Origin: a bacterium
GTDB taxonomy: Bacteria > UBP7 > UBA6624
Assembly: GCA_014384545.1 (NCBI GenBank)
Contig: JACNFQ010000089.1
Coordinates: 1-64,000 of the forward strand
DNA length: 64,000 bases
Direction: 5' to 3'
In this document: one piece after another, positions 40,792-47,617 of the stretch
Numbering within the stretch: the first letter of the stretch is position 1
How the letters are laid out: each line of letters starts with the position of its first letter
Program-made: the position numbers and the translations under genes
The notes under the pieces: generated by a model
What the model was told of the DNA's origin: nothing
Seen by the model: the letters and a program-made list of their open reading frames with translations, nothing else
The model's database searches: none

Positions 40792-41617
40792 TCCCCGCTT
40801 TGTTCAAGAGGGTCCTTCTTTTTGGGAGGGTTTACACCAAGAAGCAAAAGGTTACTTTTCTTCTTTTGGTCGCTCACAATCATTAGGTCAGAACTTCCTC
40901 GTTGACCCCTTTGCCCTCCACGCCATCTCTCTATTGATTGAGGCTCGTCCCTCTCCTTGGACTGTAGAGGTAGGGGCTGGACTGGGGTTTTTAACACGCG
41001 GTCTCTCCCACAGACCTCACCTCACCCTCTTTGAGCTGGATCTCTCTCTATTGTCACGCCTGTCGTCCCACTTTCCAAACGCTTCCCTTTTGGGTGACTT
41101 TAGGGATTGGGACGCATCAAGTGCCCCCCCAAACGGACTCCTCGTGGGAAATATTCCCTACTCTCTTTCGGGTTCCGTTCTCTCTCTGTTGGCTCGGTAC
41201 CCATCACGCTTTATCGGTAGCATTCTTACGCTTCAGCGAGAGGTCGCCCAGCGCGTGGCGGCACCGATACATACGAAGCGCCGAGGTCTTTTATCTGGTC
41301 CTCTCCAAGCGATCTACAACGTGGAAGTCGCCCGACGACTGCCCCCTGGTGTGTTTGCACCACCTCCTCGTGTTCACTCCGCTGTTTTGGTTCTAGATAG
41401 GAACGAAATCTTTCCAGATGACAAATGGGCCCATAATCACCTTGCTCTGATGAAACTCGCTTTCTCACAGCGGCGGAAAAAGGTGGCAAACCTCTTGTCT
41501 CATGTGCTTCCGGAAAAGTGCCTCAACGAGATTCCTGATGGAGCGCGTGCCGAAGATCTTCCCACATCCCTGTCCCTCCACCTCTCCTCTTTTTTTCAGC
41601 CCAAGAAAACGTCTTAG
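40754..41617 (+). CDS. rsmA: 16S rRNA dimethyladenosine transferase
   Basis: About 287 residues of RsmA/KsgA, which dimethylates the two adenosines of the 3'-terminal 16S rRNA hairpin. Motifs are SLGQNFLVDP, VEVGAGLGFLTRGL (SAM), ELDLSLL (acidic ligand) and NIPYSLSGSVL (N-I-P-Y catalytic motif), then LQREVAQRVAA and GVFAPPPRVHSAVLVL. The start is uncertain: TTG 40754 is used; TTG 40769 or GTG 40742 are alternatives, all overlapping the Cse60-like gene. The stop overlaps the convergent FlxA-like gene by four bases. Confidence 0.88.
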   Translation: MWREHLSSTKKPSPRFVQEGPSFWEGLHQEAKGYFSSFGRSQSLGQNFLVDPFALHAISLLIEARPSPWTVEVGAGLGFLTRGLSHRPHLTLFELDLSLLSRLSSHFPNASLLGDFRDWDASSAPPNGLLVGNIPYSLSGSVLSLLARYPSRFIGSILTLQREVAQRVAAPIHTKRRGLLSGPLQAIYNVEVARRLPPGVFAPPPRVHSAVLVLDRNEIFPDDKWAHNHLALMKLAFSQRRKKVANLLSHVLPEKCLNEIPDGARAEDLPTSLSLHLSSFFQPKKTS

Positions 41618-42426
41618 TCGTTTAGCCCTAAAGCATCCTCTGAAAGGTCTCGCAAAGTCGCCAAATCAAAAACGGGGCCTCTGGTCCAAATGTTGACACC
41701 AGCCAAGAGGTCTTGGTTGCTCCACCCCAAACCCGTGGTCCAGTTCCTGTTGACGAGGAAATAGATATCCTTGTCGCGAAGTCTTGACTTTTCTAAGATG
41801 CCCATTAGAACCTTTTGGAAGGGCCTCGTTCCTCCAACGGCTGCTCCTACCATGCCCTGGAGAATCTTCTTCTTCATAATCTGATCTCTGAGAAAGGTCT
41901 CCCAAGGTTGATTCCCCCTGTCTTTACTCGCAATCAGGTGGACTTGGATGGGAGAACTTTCCTCTGAAGCTTTCTCCAGCGCTTTCGCCAAGACCGGGTT
42001 CTCCTTATCCGTTGTCAGATGAGTGATAACGACCTCTTTTCCCTGTGCCAATAGAGCATTTACCAGCCCGCGTTGGGCGGCTAGCCCCATATCCATGGAG
42101 AAGAGCCCTATCTTTCCCTCGGGCCATCCCTCTGTCGGAAGACCATTCCCATACGGTCCCCTTAGCCCTAAAGCCTGTCCCTCAGAAAGAAGGAATAGGC
42201 GATGTGTAACGCTATCCACGTCTTGGAGAGAAACCCCAAAACAGTCTTTGCTAACCTCCGAAACGACCCCTGTCGTTTCCCCCCGCCCAAAAACTGATAT
42301 CTTGAAACCTTGTCCGGGAGTGATTGGTGAAAACCCCTCTCTTGAAAAGAAGAGGGTCAGCACACCTCCCCCTTCCTCTTGTATCGACTCAATCGAATGG
42401 ATGTGAGGAATAAGGGGATCTGTCAT
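41614..42426 (-). CDS. AsrB/FlxA-like flavoprotein without [2Fe-2S] cysteines
   Basis: A 270-residue homologue of the FAD/NAD(P)-binding subunit of sulfhydrogenase, sulfite reductase (AsrB) or FlxA. The beta-barrel and the LGLRGPYGNGLPTEGW segment (86-100) are well kept. The C-terminal element that normally reads KCGIGKCGHCQ...VC-DGPVF aligns without gaps to TTGLGWSNQD...IW-RGPVF (230-253): the four cluster cysteines are Thr231, Ser236, Asp239 and Trp247. The nucleotide motif AGGIGLAP is SMDMGLAA (110-117) and CGPP is VGGT. Only one cysteine remains (Cys62). Last gene of the four-gene module, with ATGA overlap. Confidence 0.85.
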   Translation of the reverse strand: MTDPLIPHIHSIESIQEEGGGVLTLFFSREGFSPITPGQGFKISVFGRGETTGVVSEVSKDCFGVSLQDVDSVTHRLFLLSEGQALGLRGPYGNGLPTEGWPEGKIGLFSMDMGLAAQRGLVNALLAQGKEVVITHLTTDKENPVLAKALEKASEESSPIQVHLIASKDRGNQPWETFLRDQIMKKKILQGMVGAAVGGTRPFQKVLMGILEKSRLRDKDIYFLVNRNWTTGLGWSNQDLLAGVNIWTRGPVFDLATLRDLSEDALGLND

Positions 42427-43442
42427 CCGAAATCTACACCTTGAATGATCTTCCTGACATCATGTTTTGTGGGCATCGCCGCCACACATCTATGTGCACC
42501 TGAACAACCCAGAAATCCATGTCTCTTGGGGAAGTAAAGGAACATCTCCAGAAGCCAGTCTCTTATCCTCTCCTTCATCCCGGGTCGATAGTCGTCCCCA
42601 TCGGGTAGTCGAGAGTATCCTGGGGCATGAGGGTGCGTCCAAACTCTGTACCGTGTTCCTTGGTGACCTTTGGGGACATCTATAAATCGAAATTGGGTTC
42701 CCGAGTAGAAATACCGACTGATCGCTGCACTGGGAATCATCCCCAAGTAGACCTCGTCCCAGTAAGGTAATGCCAAAATCTCGGCATCCGAAAACTCTTC
42801 CCACCGCTCCAGTTCTAGAGATTGATCGGTAGATCCCCGTACCCCCGCCTTTGCTTTTCGGGCATCTTCGCGATGGTCGGATTCTGCGGGATTGAACTGG
42901 TCAGTAATCAAGGCCATCCCCCGCTCGGTCAATACTTGGACATAGTAGGTTCTACCTAAATCGGTAAGGAGCATATCTACCCCCTCTTCAGGGAAAAGAT
43001 CCACCCCGACCGACTCAGCAAAGCAACACGGTGGCGGGTTGTGGTAACCCACACAGATTATGGCACTATTCTCTCTCCTAGCCTTGTACCGTTCATCGGT
43101 CACATCCCCCATCCAATACGCATCCATAATCTCCAACCCTCTTACATCGGGTGGTCGCATGCCAAAAATAACCCTAGGAGTCGTGTCGGGCGGTTTGGGT
43201 GTAATCTCGACTTTGTCTGGAAGAATATCATAGGAGAAGATCTCTTCGCGAGGAGGAAAGAAAATCGCCTTAGGAGATTCCTTCGTATTCGTATACTCGG
43301 TAATCACTTCTTCGCCCAGAGGGTTCCGGGTAAAGTGCAAGCTACCCTCCTTACCCGTGGGTGCCCAAACCTCTTGGCTCAATCTAAGATCGTCCAACCA
43401 GTAGCGAAGTTTCGCTTTCGCAAAGATGAAATCCGCAATCAC
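42423..43442 (-). CDS. AsrA/FlxB-like protein with dismantled [4Fe-4S] sites
   Basis: A 339-residue homologue of the iron-sulfur subunit AsrA/FlxB/sulfhydrogenase beta. The non-cluster part is conserved: SPKAIFFPPREEIFSYD (56-72), IFGMRPPDVRGLEIMD (normally FGVRPCDARAL, Cys to Pro98) and MLLTDLGRTYYVQV. The first ferredoxin site around 217-245 has no cysteine. The second, normally CxxCxxCxxxCP, reads C313-xx-A316-xx-C319-xxx-M323-P, leaving two of four ligands. CFC is CFA (140-142). It presumably cannot hold normal clusters. GTGA overlap upstream, ATGA overlap downstream. Confidence 0.82.
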   Translation of the reverse strand: MIADFIFAKAKLRYWLDDLRLSQEVWAPTGKEGSLHFTRNPLGEEVITEYTNTKESPKAIFFPPREEIFSYDILPDKVEITPKPPDTTPRVIFGMRPPDVRGLEIMDAYWMGDVTDERYKARRENSAIICVGYHNPPPCCFAESVGVDLFPEEGVDMLLTDLGRTYYVQVLTERGMALITDQFNPAESDHREDARKAKAGVRGSTDQSLELERWEEFSDAEILALPYWDEVYLGMIPSAAISRYFYSGTQFRFIDVPKGHQGTRYRVWTHPHAPGYSRLPDGDDYRPGMKERIRDWLLEMFLYFPKRHGFLGCSGAHRCVAAMPTKHDVRKIIQGVDFG

Positions 43443-44329
43443 TGTTCTATCTTCCTTGAGAGTGTTAGAGGATTGTCTCCACGGTCTCCTGGACGGTAAT
43501 CAAAAATGCGTCGGAAATGGCGTGACGACCAAGCTCGGATTGCTGAAACAGGTACTTTTCCTCTTTCTGTACCCAAATCAGAAAGGTCAAAACCAGACAG
43601 CCTTCCCAATCCCTGGTAGACCCAACATAGGTGCTGAAAAAAGAGATCTTCGGGACTGTAGTCACCTCGAACAAGCCCCGTCTCGGTCAGGTGGTCCCCC
43701 CCACCATAAGTAGACGGGAAATGAGAAATAGTCTCATTTACTGGTGATGCTGAGCCAAACATCTCTAACCAATGTGCTCGTCTTTGTGGGTGGGTCATGT
43801 GGGAGAGTCTCTCTAGGTTTGTTCTTCCTAGGTCAGGTTTTTCCTTGTTCTCAAGATCAAACATCCACCGGGGTTCAACCAATAGGTCACATTCTTCGGG
43901 TTTTTCAAAAAGATCGTGCCAACTCCACTCCCAAAGAGCTTCTGGGCAATCAGGGAAGGTTATCTGATTCTCGTTACTCCTTGAAACCAAAACACGGTTG
44001 GGGTCTAGATACCCTGTAAACCGGACGCCAATAATGTGGAGGTTTTCTCTTTTAACGAGCCCATCCTTGACCAACTCCTTGATTGAACGCACCACGGCAG
44101 GGGTAGCAACAATTCCTACTTTTCCCTGAATCCCAGGAAGGTATGTAGCTAGGTTTAAGGTGGAGAAACAGTTAAAGACGAGGGATTGAACATCGTCGGG
44201 GCGGAATGCAAAACAGGGAGCCGTCGTGCCCGGGTATGGACCCACTTGATACCCAATAACGACACTCACGTAGTCTCGTTTTAGGAGACGTCTTGCCTCC
44301 CTCTGAATACTGATTCTTAGTTCGTTCAT
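43439..44329 (-). CDS. FrhB/FlxC-like protein without [4Fe-4S] cysteines
   Basis: A 296-residue relative of the coenzyme F420 hydrogenase/dehydrogenase beta-type, dicluster proteins found with HdrA. RREA-like start, VVIGYQVGPYPGTTAPCFAF and RPDDVQSLVFNCFSTLNLATYL match the N-terminal domain. The KGCDSR element is TPAVVR (76-81) and IGVPC is IGVRF. Where homologues have two CxxCxxCxxxCP sites, the first region (190-210) has Ser/Pro/Thr, and the second reads L244, F247, S250, T254 with normal spacing after GR. Its five remaining cysteines form no CxxC pair. ATGA overlap with the HdrA-like gene. Confidence 0.75.
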   Translation of the reverse strand: MNELRISIQREARRLLKRDYVSVVIGYQVGPYPGTTAPCFAFRPDDVQSLVFNCFSTLNLATYLPGIQGKVGIVATPAVVRSIKELVKDGLVKRENLHIIGVRFTGYLDPNRVLVSRSNENQITFPDCPEALWEWSWHDLFEKPEECDLLVEPRWMFDLENKEKPDLGRTNLERLSHMTHPQRRAHWLEMFGSASPVNETISHFPSTYGGGDHLTETGLVRGDYSPEDLFFQHLCWVYQGLGRLSGFDLSDLGTERGKVPVSAIRAWSSRHFRRIFDYRPGDRGDNPLTLSRKIEQ

Positions 44330-46674
44330 TCGTTAAAACCTAACGGTCCTAGCGCCTGAATACCCTTGCTGAACTCCTGGAGGGTTTCTCGGAGTTCTCT
44401 AATCTGATGAGGCCCCATAAACGCTACCTTTATTCTGTTGGGTTCGATACCTGCTCCATCCATTACGCCCTCTAAGGCACGAAATCGTCTCATAGCCAAG
44501 TAGTTATCTTGGTGGAACCTACCTTCACCGAGGGGTCCTGCTAAGATGAGAACCCCATCAGCACCTCCCAAGAGTGTCTTGAGAACGAGGAGGGGGTCTA
44601 GATGTGCCGAGGATCGAACACGTAAGAATCGATACGATGAACTGTATCCTTGTCTCTCCCTCCCCAACATCTCCAGAAGTGGATACCCGCCAAACTGCGT
44701 AGCAAAACCTGTAATCCGAGGTTTCCAGATCGTTCCCAATCCATCACTCCAAAGTGACTCTATTTCTGCAAGAGCCTTACCCATCTCCCACCCCCTTAGC
44801 TCCACATTTCTGGTGGGGCTAGCAGGAACGGATGCCCCACTCTCTGTTCCCCCCTCTCCAGCAACCCGAATGCGTTGAGACAATGTGCCCTCATTTGTCA
44901 CTTCAAATTGCTCTGGAGAAACACGAGCACAATCTCGGTCATATCGACTCTCTTCTCTCGACCTAAGAATCAGTTTGTGTGGACTCCCTTTTTTTTTTCC
45001 TAAAACCCCAAGTGCTTTGGCCGCTGCCGCTTCAGCAGAAATCACTGCAGTTCGGATATCCCCGGGAGACGTGCAGTCTCCCGCCACGAAGACACCATCA
45101 TTGTTCGTTGCGCAAGGATCCAATGCAGGGTGGGTTTCCTTCAAAAACCCACTCTTGTCAACCCCAACCTGAACAAGTTCTGACAACATCGCTGTTTCAT
45201 CGTGAGGTACAGCCTCCGTCACTAAAACCACACCATTCGCCCTAAGGCGACGTTCGCCACCCTGCAAAATATCATGAACGACCACAACGGAACCTCCCGC
45301 CTGTGGTGAAACCTGAGAAGAGGCACCTCGAATCAGTTCCACTCCATATTCTTCAACAGCGGTCCTAAGAAACTCCCTATACCCTCTTGTGTGAGCTCGA
45401 AGATCTTTGTAAACGACCGTACATGAACAATCGGGGTGATTCTTCTTGACCATAATCGCTTGCTTTGCTGCAATCATGAGGGGTATCTCGGTCGCATAGG
45501 GTACCCCCTTTTGGGGATCATCACTACCAACATCTGTTAGCCAAACAAGAGACTGAGGAGCCTTCCCCCCCAAGAGTATCTCACCTTGAGTTGGTCCACC
45601 CGAAGAGAGAATTCTTTCAAATCCTTCCGCCGAAAAACTCCCCTCCGCACTCGGGTTTAGGTGCTGTAACGAAGAAGGGTCAAATCTCTTTGATCCCACA
45701 GCAAGAATGATCGCTCCCACCCTTTCGTGTACAACCTTCTCTTTTTCGTTGGGGTCAATCGCTCCCTCTTCTAAAAGGGATGTTGCCCCAGAGAGGGCAC
45801 CTTTGATGTGGTCGGGGTCTACCAGAGGGTCGTCTGGTACCGCACCGGGAAAGGGGAGATAGAGAGCCGCCCTCATGGAAAGCCCCTCTTGATAACTATC
45901 TGGGATATTCTTAGGCAACGCCTCCATCGCTTTTTCCAACCCCTCCAACTTGTTCTTGTCAACGAATCTTGGTTTCTTATGAATATCCACTTCGTAGTTG
46001 CCCGGAACTCCCGATATCGAGCCCACTTCACTATAAGCATAAACCTCAATGTTTTCACTTTGGTGGCATTCCAACATCAACTGTCGCGCCAACCCTTGGG
46101 CTTCATCCAGTCGTGGCCACAGTCGATCTAACTGAACCAATCTACCCCCCAAAGAGGGTGCCCTCTCAACTAAGACCACCCCATACCCCCCTTTGGCTAG
46201 GCGAAGTGCTGCTGTCATCCCAGCGACCCCACCACCCACCACCAAAACCTGCTGTTCCACCCGAATGTGCTCACTCTCTATAGGTTTGCCTTGCTGTGTT
46301 CTCTTTACAGCTGTGCGCAAGAGTTGGAACGCTTTTTCTGTCGCTTCATCCTTATCTTCATGGACGAAGGCAACCATCTCTTTTAGGTTAACGACTTCCA
46401 CAAGGTGCGGGTTGATTCCTTTACTTTCTAGTGCCGCCTTGATCGTTGCCTCTCCCCTCTCTAACGACCCCCCACCCACAACGACATACGCAAGAGCTTC
46501 TTCTTGGGCAACACGCCCCATTTCCTCTAGCCCCGCTACCGTATTGATGTCGTCATGTAGGTGAACATGGTCCACTTCTTGGAGTTCGTCCTCTAGCCGG
46601 TGAGCAATCCCTTCTAAGTCCAAGACTTCAAGGTCTCCCCCTTCTCTACTAATAAACACACCTATTTTGCTCAT
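44326..46674 (-). CDS. HdrA-FlxD/MvhD fusion lacking iron-sulfur cysteines
   Basis: A 782-residue homologue of heterodisulfide reductase subunit A with a C-terminal MvhD/FlxD domain. The FAD site is intact (LVVGGGVAGM, 144-153; SLGGRLVQLD). Every cluster region is altered. The N-terminal CxCG is ISREG; DCSAC is DEAQG (190-194); the first ferredoxin CxxCxxCxxxCP is L243-L246-A249-L253-P; VPYCSRVCC is VPYATEIPL (391-399). The later ferredoxins read S576-D579-C582-S586-P and G609-S612-S615-S619-P. MvhD FCCNWC is FATQFG (657-662), with SS for CS and GPLGEGRF for GCHPGDCH. Alignment needs almost no gaps, so this is substitution, not decay. ATGA overlaps on both sides. Confidence 0.9.
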   Translation of the reverse strand: MSKIGVFISREGGDLEVLDLEGIAHRLEDELQEVDHVHLHDDINTVAGLEEMGRVAQEEALAYVVVGGGSLERGEATIKAALESKGINPHLVEVVNLKEMVAFVHEDKDEATEKAFQLLRTAVKRTQQGKPIESEHIRVEQQVLVVGGGVAGMTAALRLAKGGYGVVLVERAPSLGGRLVQLDRLWPRLDEAQGLARQLMLECHQSENIEVYAYSEVGSISGVPGNYEVDIHKKPRFVDKNKLEGLEKAMEALPKNIPDSYQEGLSMRAALYLPFPGAVPDDPLVDPDHIKGALSGATSLLEEGAIDPNEKEKVVHERVGAIILAVGSKRFDPSSLQHLNPSAEGSFSAEGFERILSSGGPTQGEILLGGKAPQSLVWLTDVGSDDPQKGVPYATEIPLMIAAKQAIMVKKNHPDCSCTVVYKDLRAHTRGYREFLRTAVEEYGVELIRGASSQVSPQAGGSVVVVHDILQGGERRLRANGVVLVTEAVPHDETAMLSELVQVGVDKSGFLKETHPALDPCATNNDGVFVAGDCTSPGDIRTAVISAEAAAAKALGVLGKKKGSPHKLILRSREESRYDRDCARVSPEQFEVTNEGTLSQRIRVAGEGGTESGASVPASPTRNVELRGWEMGKALAEIESLWSDGLGTIWKPRITGFATQFGGYPLLEMLGRERQGYSSSYRFLRVRSSAHLDPLLVLKTLLGGADGVLILAGPLGEGRFHQDNYLAMRRFRALEGVMDGAGIEPNRIKVAFMGPHQIRELRETLQEFSKGIQALGPLGFNE

Positions 46675-47399
46675 GCTGTTACCCCTCGGTGAATAGATTG
46701 AACCACTTTGTAAGAAATCCCCAACAGAAGGAGGATTGGGCCCGCCAAGAGAACTTGGCTAACCACATCCGGTGGTGTCAGGAGTGCTGCCATAACAAAT
46801 GTCAATACAATCAAGTGCCCCGCCTTCTGTTTAAAAAAGAGTGGCGTAAGTAAGCCGATTCTAGCCAATAGCCCACAAATGACGGGCAACTCAAACGCCA
46901 AAGCCGCCCCCCCGACAATGCCTTGGACAAAACCCAACCACGCTGAGAATGTCCAAACAGGCTCCAAACCATGCGATAATCCGAACCGAAAGAGAAATCC
47001 TGAGGAGACTGGAAGAAGAACAGACCACCCAAACCAAGAACCTAATACCAACATCAGAATTGCGGGCAAAAAGACCCATTTGAGTCCTGCCACCTCTTTC
47101 TCCTTTAGCCCTGGGCGAACAAAGAGGACGATTTCTCGGACCCAAACCGGAAGAGAAAGGAGGGCACCCCCCGTCAGGGCAAGTCTCACCACAGATAGGA
47201 ATGCTTCTTGGGGTGAGAGAATGTGTAAAGAGACCTCAAACTTCTCTATGGGTATCTTGAGGGCGTCCAGTAGCACCCCTGCTTTCCACCCCACAAGAAG
47301 GGTCGCAACGAGCCAAGCAAGGAGCGACCGAATTAGCCCACCCCTCAAATCCCCCAAGTGCTCAACGAGTGGTCTGGGTTGGTCCTCTTTGGAGGTCAG
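46671..47399 (-). CDS. tatC: Sec-independent translocase TatC, probable CTG start
   Basis: A 242-residue, six-helix TatC that with TatA exports folded, twin-arginine proteins. The N-terminal family motif reads PLVEHLGDLRGGLIRS (normally HLxELRxR), and FRFGLSHGLEPVWT and AFELPVI are typical of the central part. The first ATG/GTG/TTG (TTG 47357) falls inside the motif and would remove its His. The only plausible start is CTG 47399, which overlaps the tatA stop as CTGA, the same coupling geometry as elsewhere here. The stop overlaps the HdrA-like gene. Confidence 0.9.
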   Translation of the reverse strand: MTSKEDQPRPLVEHLGDLRGGLIRSLLAWLVATLLVGWKAGVLLDALKIPIEKFEVSLHILSPQEAFLSVVRLALTGGALLSLPVWVREIVLFVRPGLKEKEVAGLKWVFLPAILMLVLGSWFGWSVLLPVSSGFLFRFGLSHGLEPVWTFSAWLGFVQGIVGGAALAFELPVICGLLARIGLLTPLFFKQKAGHLIVLTFVMAALLTPPDVVSQVLLAGPILLLLGISYKVVQSIHRGVTA

Positions 47400-47617
47400 G
47401 GCAAAGGTGGTTCTTCTTCTTCTACTACAGAACCGTCCTCAACGCTCTTCTTGATCTCCTTTTCCCCCTCTTTCAGCCCCCCTTTGAACTCCCCCACAGA
47501 TGCCCCAATAGATCGGGCAAACTCCTTTATCTTTCCTGGACCAAAGAAGATGAGCGCCACAACCGCAATCACCACAATCTCTGTTGTTCCGAACCCTACA
47601 CCCAATAGAAATGGCAT
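47396..47617 (-). CDS. tatA: Sec-independent translocase TatA/TatE
   Basis: A 73-residue protein with a short N-terminal membrane helix (TTEIVVIAVVALIFFG), the hinge FGPGKIKEFARSIGASVGEF and an acidic tail, all typical of TatA. It oligomerises to form the Tat translocation site. 29 bases downstream of lpdA and overlapping tatC by four bases. No TatB is seen, as in many TatAC systems. Confidence 0.95.
   Translation of the reverse strand: MPFLLGVGFGTTEIVVIAVVALIFFGPGKIKEFARSIGASVGEFKGGLKEGEKEIKKSVEDGSVVEEEEPPLP

Follow-up and report, generated by a model that had tools for sequence, protein, structure and literature searches.

Fe-S relays are taken to be the reason that complexes of the heterodisulfide reductase (Hdr) and Flx type exist. 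FlxABCD-HdrABC is described as an NADH dehydrogenase/heterodisulfide reductase found in anaerobic bacteria (Ramos et al. 2015, as cited in PMC5296606). In HdrA2, or type Ia HdrA (PMC5296606, PMC12054007), HdrA is fused to MvhD; the M. acetivorans protein contains Fe4S4 clusters, one Fe2S2 cluster and FAD. The sHdr system, which serves sulfur oxidation, has the layout hdrC1B1A-hyp-hdrC2B2 with lbpA genes (PMC6067878). Among Fe-S folds without a cluster, the closest tested analogy is the plant complex I protein mFDX-like, an Fe-S carrier that has lost its ligands and become structural, and for which the absence of the cluster was shown biochemically (PMC10069907).

The set of genes analysed here, from the poorly known bacterial candidate phylum UBP7, resembles FlxABCD-HdrABC in the homology of its subunits, in the order hdrA-flxD-flxC-flxB-flxA and in the presence of hdrC-hdrB in the genome; it differs in lacking cluster sites, the NAD and FAD motifs of FlxA and the CCG motifs of HdrB, in carrying hdrCB on another contig and in fusing flxD to hdrA. 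With HdrA2 it shares the MvhD fusion, a Glu/Lys flavin pair and a full-length match to NF040770, but it has no complete cluster site and scores far below the NCBIfam cut-off. Like the UBP7 set, sHdr is an Hdr-derived complex with a different role and lipoate genes nearby, but Flx subunits lie outside its layout, and neither lbpA nor a second hdrC2B2 stands beside the UBP7 loci that we read. Ligand loss with structural retention is common to mFDX-like and UBP7; mFDX-like, however, is one small subunit that has lost one Cys in many plants, whereas the UBP7 set is multisubunit and has lost 81 of 86.

An HdrA-FlxD fusion and its companion subunits

The window, by which we mean the whole 64,000-nucleotide stretch of DNA analysed, is contig G000:C16 of a 1.39-Mb UBP7 metagenome-assembled genome (MAG). 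Its minus strand encodes a 782-aa HdrA-FlxD(MvhD) fusion (44326..46674), identified by family matches and alignments. The protein matches NF040770, the model for HdrA2 (HdrA-MvhD fusion), over residues 3-779 (E 2.6e-134), with 449 bits against a curated NCBIfam cut-off of 1100. Pfam recovers FAD domains and FlpD/MvhD (residues 654-776, E 1.7e-22), with no ferredoxin domain among the matches, and the closest solved structure is 5odc_A, HdrA of the Hdr-Mvh complex (E 3.8e-91). Aligned with canonical HdrA and MvhD, the fusion has lost 25 of 27 family-conserved HdrA cysteines and all five of the MvhD part. Ferredoxin-type sites read L243-L246-A249-L253 and G609-S612-S615-S619 in place of Cys, the DCSxC pair has become E191 and G194, the C...C...CC site D381, A394, P398 and L399, and the MvhD positions T659, G662, S688, G713 and G718. 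Cys582 alone still occupies a ferredoxin-type ligand position, and both sister genomes have Ala there; Cys534 falls in a column where Cys is mostly conserved but which belongs to no canonical cluster motif. AlphaFold2 models built from 3-row alignments were unusable (pLDDT 41 for HdrA-FlxD, 29 for FlxB).

The flavin site has fared differently: family-invariant residues other than Cys are retained at 47 of 89 positions in the FAD halves versus 4 of 17 in the ferredoxin domains. The window HdrA keeps the G147-G152 motif, E170, E353, K404 and D533, and the FAD motifs, E353 and K404 do not vary among the three UBP7 HdrA sequences. By positions counted in the 5odc_A search alignment, E353 and K404 correspond to E356 and K409 of M. 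thermolithotrophicus HdrA, which hold or stabilise FADH- and have been proposed as a mark of bifurcating HdrA (PMC12054007). The SGPTxG loop directly after the flavin Glu is missing from the sister genus, which makes flavin binding less certain in those proteins. FAD binding by UBP7 HdrA is a prediction, with no biochemistry behind it. A preliminary description of this gene had reported HdrA and MvhD/FlxD homology along the whole protein, an intact FAD motif and a list of substitutions; the searches and alignments bear out all of these, the substitutions exactly, and extend the second to the Glu/Lys pair. Its statement that Cys582 is the only canonical ligand Cys left holds for ferredoxin-type positions.

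As a separate observation, canonical HdrA matches in four genomes (G003, G008, G026 and G057; L008-L011) run through one in-frame TGA, and these HdrA proteins probably contain selenocysteine.

Three further genes follow on the same strand, each starting inside the preceding gene's stop codon (ATGA overlap). The first (43439..44329) encodes a 296-aa FlxC-like protein without Pfam or NCBIfam match, assigned by BLAST and synteny, in which 16 of 16 conserved Cys are gone. The second (42423..43442) encodes a 339-aa FlxB-like protein of the HydB/ShyB/AsrA family, and the third (41614..42426) a 270-aa FlxA-like protein of the PyrK/AsrB/HydG family, both assigned by family match and alignment. FlxB has lost 12 of 15 conserved Cys, and the three that are left (C140, C313, C319) complete no site; these and C139 are present in all three UBP7 genomes. 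FlxA has lost all five, namely the four of the [2Fe-2S] site (CxxxxCxxC...C) and the CGP Cys, along with its GES..SS FAD motif and GGIGxAP NAD motif.

Upstream, tatC (46671..47357, minus strand), the one copy detected in the genome, shares 4 bases with the start of hdrA and is preceded by a tatA-like small ORF of 73 aa (MPFLLGVGFGTTEIVVIAVVALIFFGPGKIKEFARSIG...; 47396..47617, minus strand; identified by eye in a translation, along which the coordinates were counted). The window thus reads tatA-tatC, then translationally coupled hdrA/flxD-flxC-flxB-flxA. Elsewhere the canonical order is hdrC-hdrB-hdrA-flxD-flxC-flxB-flxA (locus L027, and L026 with flxD read from a gap); because the gene order matches, we identify the window set as the hdrA-flxDCBA part of that operon. 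The block lpd-tatC-hdrA-flxC-flxB-flxA-ksgA is common to all three UBP7 genomes, and lipB-lipA-pdh genes join it in the window genome and one relative. All three genomes also encode a 302-aa protein (window:38972-39880) with no Pfam or NCBIfam match, 36% identity between genera and a dN/dS of about 0.1.

The remaining subunits are encoded on another contig of the window genome, where L066:4723-6218 (G000:C44) carries hdrC-like and hdrB-like genes, the latter with a BLAST match to canonical HdrB. The HdrC-like protein has lost 8 of 8 conserved Cys and matches no family, so that its identification rests on alignment and gene order; the HdrB-like protein has lost 10 of 10, CCG motifs included, and matches TIGR03288 (E 3.1e-17) but not the CCG Pfam family PF02754. 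Neighbouring genes encode a metallo-beta-lactamase-fold protein and glcD/glcF. Orthologues of the pair lie beside moaA-like and NUDIX genes in one relative (G001:C9; hdrB 50% identity), and none was found in the other (G002, 62% complete). By homology, all seven subunits (HdrA, HdrB, HdrC, FlxA, FlxB, FlxC and FlxD) are therefore encoded in G000 and G001.

Ligand loss and constraint across two genera

We compared the window genome with these two relatives (G001 and G002), which belong to its family in UBP7 and to a different genus; all three genomes are incomplete MAGs, and genome-wide statements on UBP7 rest on family searches. For each subunit, conserved-Cys columns were defined from 5 to 12 canonical relatives. 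Over HdrA, FlxD, FlxC, FlxB, FlxA, HdrC and HdrB, seven subunits from six genes, 86 cysteines are family-conserved; 81 are lost and 5 remain in the window genome, 4 remain in the sister genus, and no complete cluster site is left in any subunit. The loss is selective: over HdrA, FlxA, FlxB, FlxC and HdrB, 4 of 73 conserved Cys persist in every UBP7 row, whereas for family-invariant residues other than Cys the figure is 131 of 295 (Fisher p 1.4e-11). Leu, Ala, Gly, Phe, Ser, Met and Pro make up most of the replacements. Both sister genomes share the Cys-poor state, their fusion homologues (50-51% identity to the window protein) lacking the same cysteines. Between genera, 52 of the 81 former ligand positions carry the same residue (other positions, 1031 of 2057), which indicates that the loss predates the genus split and that the replacements have been held.

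Identity between G000 and G001 is 51% for HdrA-FlxD, 60% for FlxC, 56% for FlxB and 37% for FlxA. Within the fusion, the inserted and C-terminal ferredoxin domains diverge fastest between genera (32% and 41% identity), and FlxD (65%) and the first FAD half (62%) slowest. Reading frames are intact in the three MAGs of two genera. Between G001 and G002, dN/dS is 0.040 for HdrA-FlxD, 0.020 for FlxC, 0.033 for FlxB and 0.036 for FlxA; the controls lpd, tatC, ksgA and a hypothetical gene give 0.038, 0.031, 0.070 and 0.105. These ratios are rough, since dS (0.8-2.5) is near or past saturation.

In the same genomes, Cys are intact in a two-cluster ferredoxin and in SdhB-like, NuoI-like and molybdoenzyme beta subunits, as well as in the GlcF-like protein beside the stripped hdrCB and the window's LipA. 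Organism-wide Fe-S loss is thereby ruled out; codon recoding is excluded by the diversity of the replacement residues and by the Cys that neighbouring genes keep.

Across 386 genomes of many families, the FlxB model matched 130 and the FlxC model 33. The 9 best FlxB matches and the 22 retrieved FlxC matches outside UBP7 have two CxxCxxCxxxC motifs each, and no homologue checked there lacked the cysteines. When 84,980 species genomes were scanned for motifs with the FlxB alignment, only two UBP7 contigs were returned, although such a scan would miss diverged relatives; a contig scan with a single protein as query gave no match.

The preliminary description had proposed a maintained, Fe-S-free protein derived from a bifurcating enzyme, and had held that sister genomes with the cysteines, or relaxed dN/dS and frameshifts, would point to decay. 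Neither was encountered: G001 and G002 lack the same cysteines, and the genes carry no disruptions and show dN/dS values (0.020-0.040) no higher than those of neighbouring housekeeping genes. The proposal is supported to that extent, with the FAD and iron status of the protein still predictions. Its view of a single stripped protein was correct for HdrA-FlxD and too narrow for the set, having missed that three downstream genes and the unlinked hdrC-hdrB pair share the loss. It knew of no described example, and our search of open-licence PMC papers likewise found no published cluster-free Hdr/Flx complex.

Readings of a complex without complete cluster sites

The comparisons demonstrate subunit homology, ligand loss in all subunits, operon structure, conservation in two genera and constraint. 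By descent the set belongs to the Hdr/Flx family; on the evidence of cluster ligands, NAD site and CCG motifs, it does not count as a functional member. Loss of catalytic ligands under continued purifying selection fits a pseudoenzyme or structural remnant, the loss of activity itself being inferred. Because nearly all conserved Cys have been replaced in proteins that are kept under strong selection, the complex must now have some role other than electron transfer through Fe-S wires.

We interpret the set as probably an exapted Fe-S-free complex in which one HdrA flavin sits on a redox-silent scaffold. That the window gene encodes a subunit of such a conserved UBP7 complex, derived from FlxABCD-HdrABC by removal of the Fe-S relay, is a proposal that we hold with evenly divided confidence. 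The stripped subunits are assumed still to assemble; the only cofactor left would be the FAD of the HdrA part, and electrons could not pass between subunits. Without clusters, a FlxA NAD site or HdrB CCG sites, the flavin would be limited to local two-electron reactions with whatever partner docks onto HdrA itself, and the remaining subunits would form a redox-silent platform that holds or regulates the flavin subunit. For HdrA2-type enzymes it has been proposed that F420 can reach the flavin (PMC12054007), which makes direct access by a partner plausible. Absence of iron from the complex is a biochemical prediction. The reading is weakened by the lack of biochemistry, expression data and a known partner, by the location of hdrCB on another contig and the failure to find it in the 62%-complete G002, and by the loop deletion beside the flavin Glu in the sister genus.

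A wholly non-redox pseudoenzyme complex, with FAD lost or merely structural and the proteins serving as scaffold, sensor or assembly platform, remains a serious possibility, to which we give about a third of our confidence. FlxA has neither its FAD nor its NAD motif, every active-site Cys is gone from HdrB and HdrC, identity between genera is highest in FlxC and the FlxD part, which are flavin-free (60 and 65%), the loop adjoining the flavin Glu is deleted in the sister genus, and mFDX-like provides a precedent (PMC10069907). What this leaves unaccounted for is the invariance of the HdrA FAD motifs, E353 and K404 in three UBP7 sequences, together with the 62% identity of the first FAD half.

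Service to neighbouring genes, either pyruvate dehydrogenase and lipoate (lipB-lipA-pdhABCD upstream) or Tat export (tatA-tatC, same operon), appears unlikely. Several features invite it: lpd, tatC and hdrA are neighbours in each of the three UBP7 genomes, G001 shares lipB-lipA-pdh with the window genome, tatC overlaps hdrA in the window, and Hdr-like sulfur oxidation needs lipoate-binding proteins (PMC6067878). But the whole block is syntenic, ksgA and a kinase included, so adjacency says little; moreover, no lipoate-binding protein gene adjoins hdr, and 69 bp separate tatC from hdrA in G001. A functional link between tatC and the hdrA/flx set is unproven.

Clusters still bound through non-Cys ligands, or through leftover Cys of several subunits such as C139, C140, C313 and C319 of FlxB, kept in all three genomes, would be very surprising, as no site is complete and the replacements are mostly residues (Leu, Ala, Gly, Phe, Ser, Met, Pro) that do not hold clusters in quartets. 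Decaying genes or an assembly artefact, which the exclusive reliance on MAGs and the fast-diverging inserted ferredoxin domain (32% identity) might suggest, is in the main refuted, and we hold it least credible of all, by three MAGs of two genera with intact frames and dN/dS of 0.02-0.04.

Metabolic setting and significance

All three genomes carry a complex I operon with NuoD, NuoH and membrane subunits (L120 on G000:C21, G001:C3 and G002:C27), and NuoF was not found in any of these incomplete assemblies. The window genome also encodes a type II DMSO-reductase-family operon (L107, G000:C28) of alpha, beta, heme b gamma and delta-like chaperone genes; its beta subunit presumably resembles the NxrB/EbdB group, and a nitrite, chlorate or hydrocarbon enzyme of UBP7 is possible. 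At L108:10076-13666 (G000:C74), oah (TIGR03200, above cut-off) lies with had-like and dch-like genes of the benzoyl-CoA pathway, near a PhsA/ArrA-like molybdoenzyme operon; the L108 genes suggest anaerobic aromatic degradation in UBP7. A simple account in which these bacteria became aerobic is weakened by POR-family ferredoxin-type oxidoreductases in all three genomes and by the benzoyl-CoA pathway enzymes in G000. A link of the stripped complex to these oxidoreductases and to the NuoF-less complex I is only an idea.

We lean towards the conclusion that UBP7 has turned an entire multisubunit bifurcating-type Fe-S oxidoreductase into a conserved Fe-S-free machine with a new function, the first case involving a whole complex. 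Homology-based annotation can evidently name a bioenergetic complex that is unable to work as named, and a natural cluster-free HdrA with FAD would be a test case for the cluster dependence of flavin bifurcation. Since no NuoF was detected alongside the complex I core, whatever the stripped complex does may also be relevant to NADH handling in these bacteria; and if all of its proteins have been kept while the relay was lost, the scaffold itself would have selectable value.
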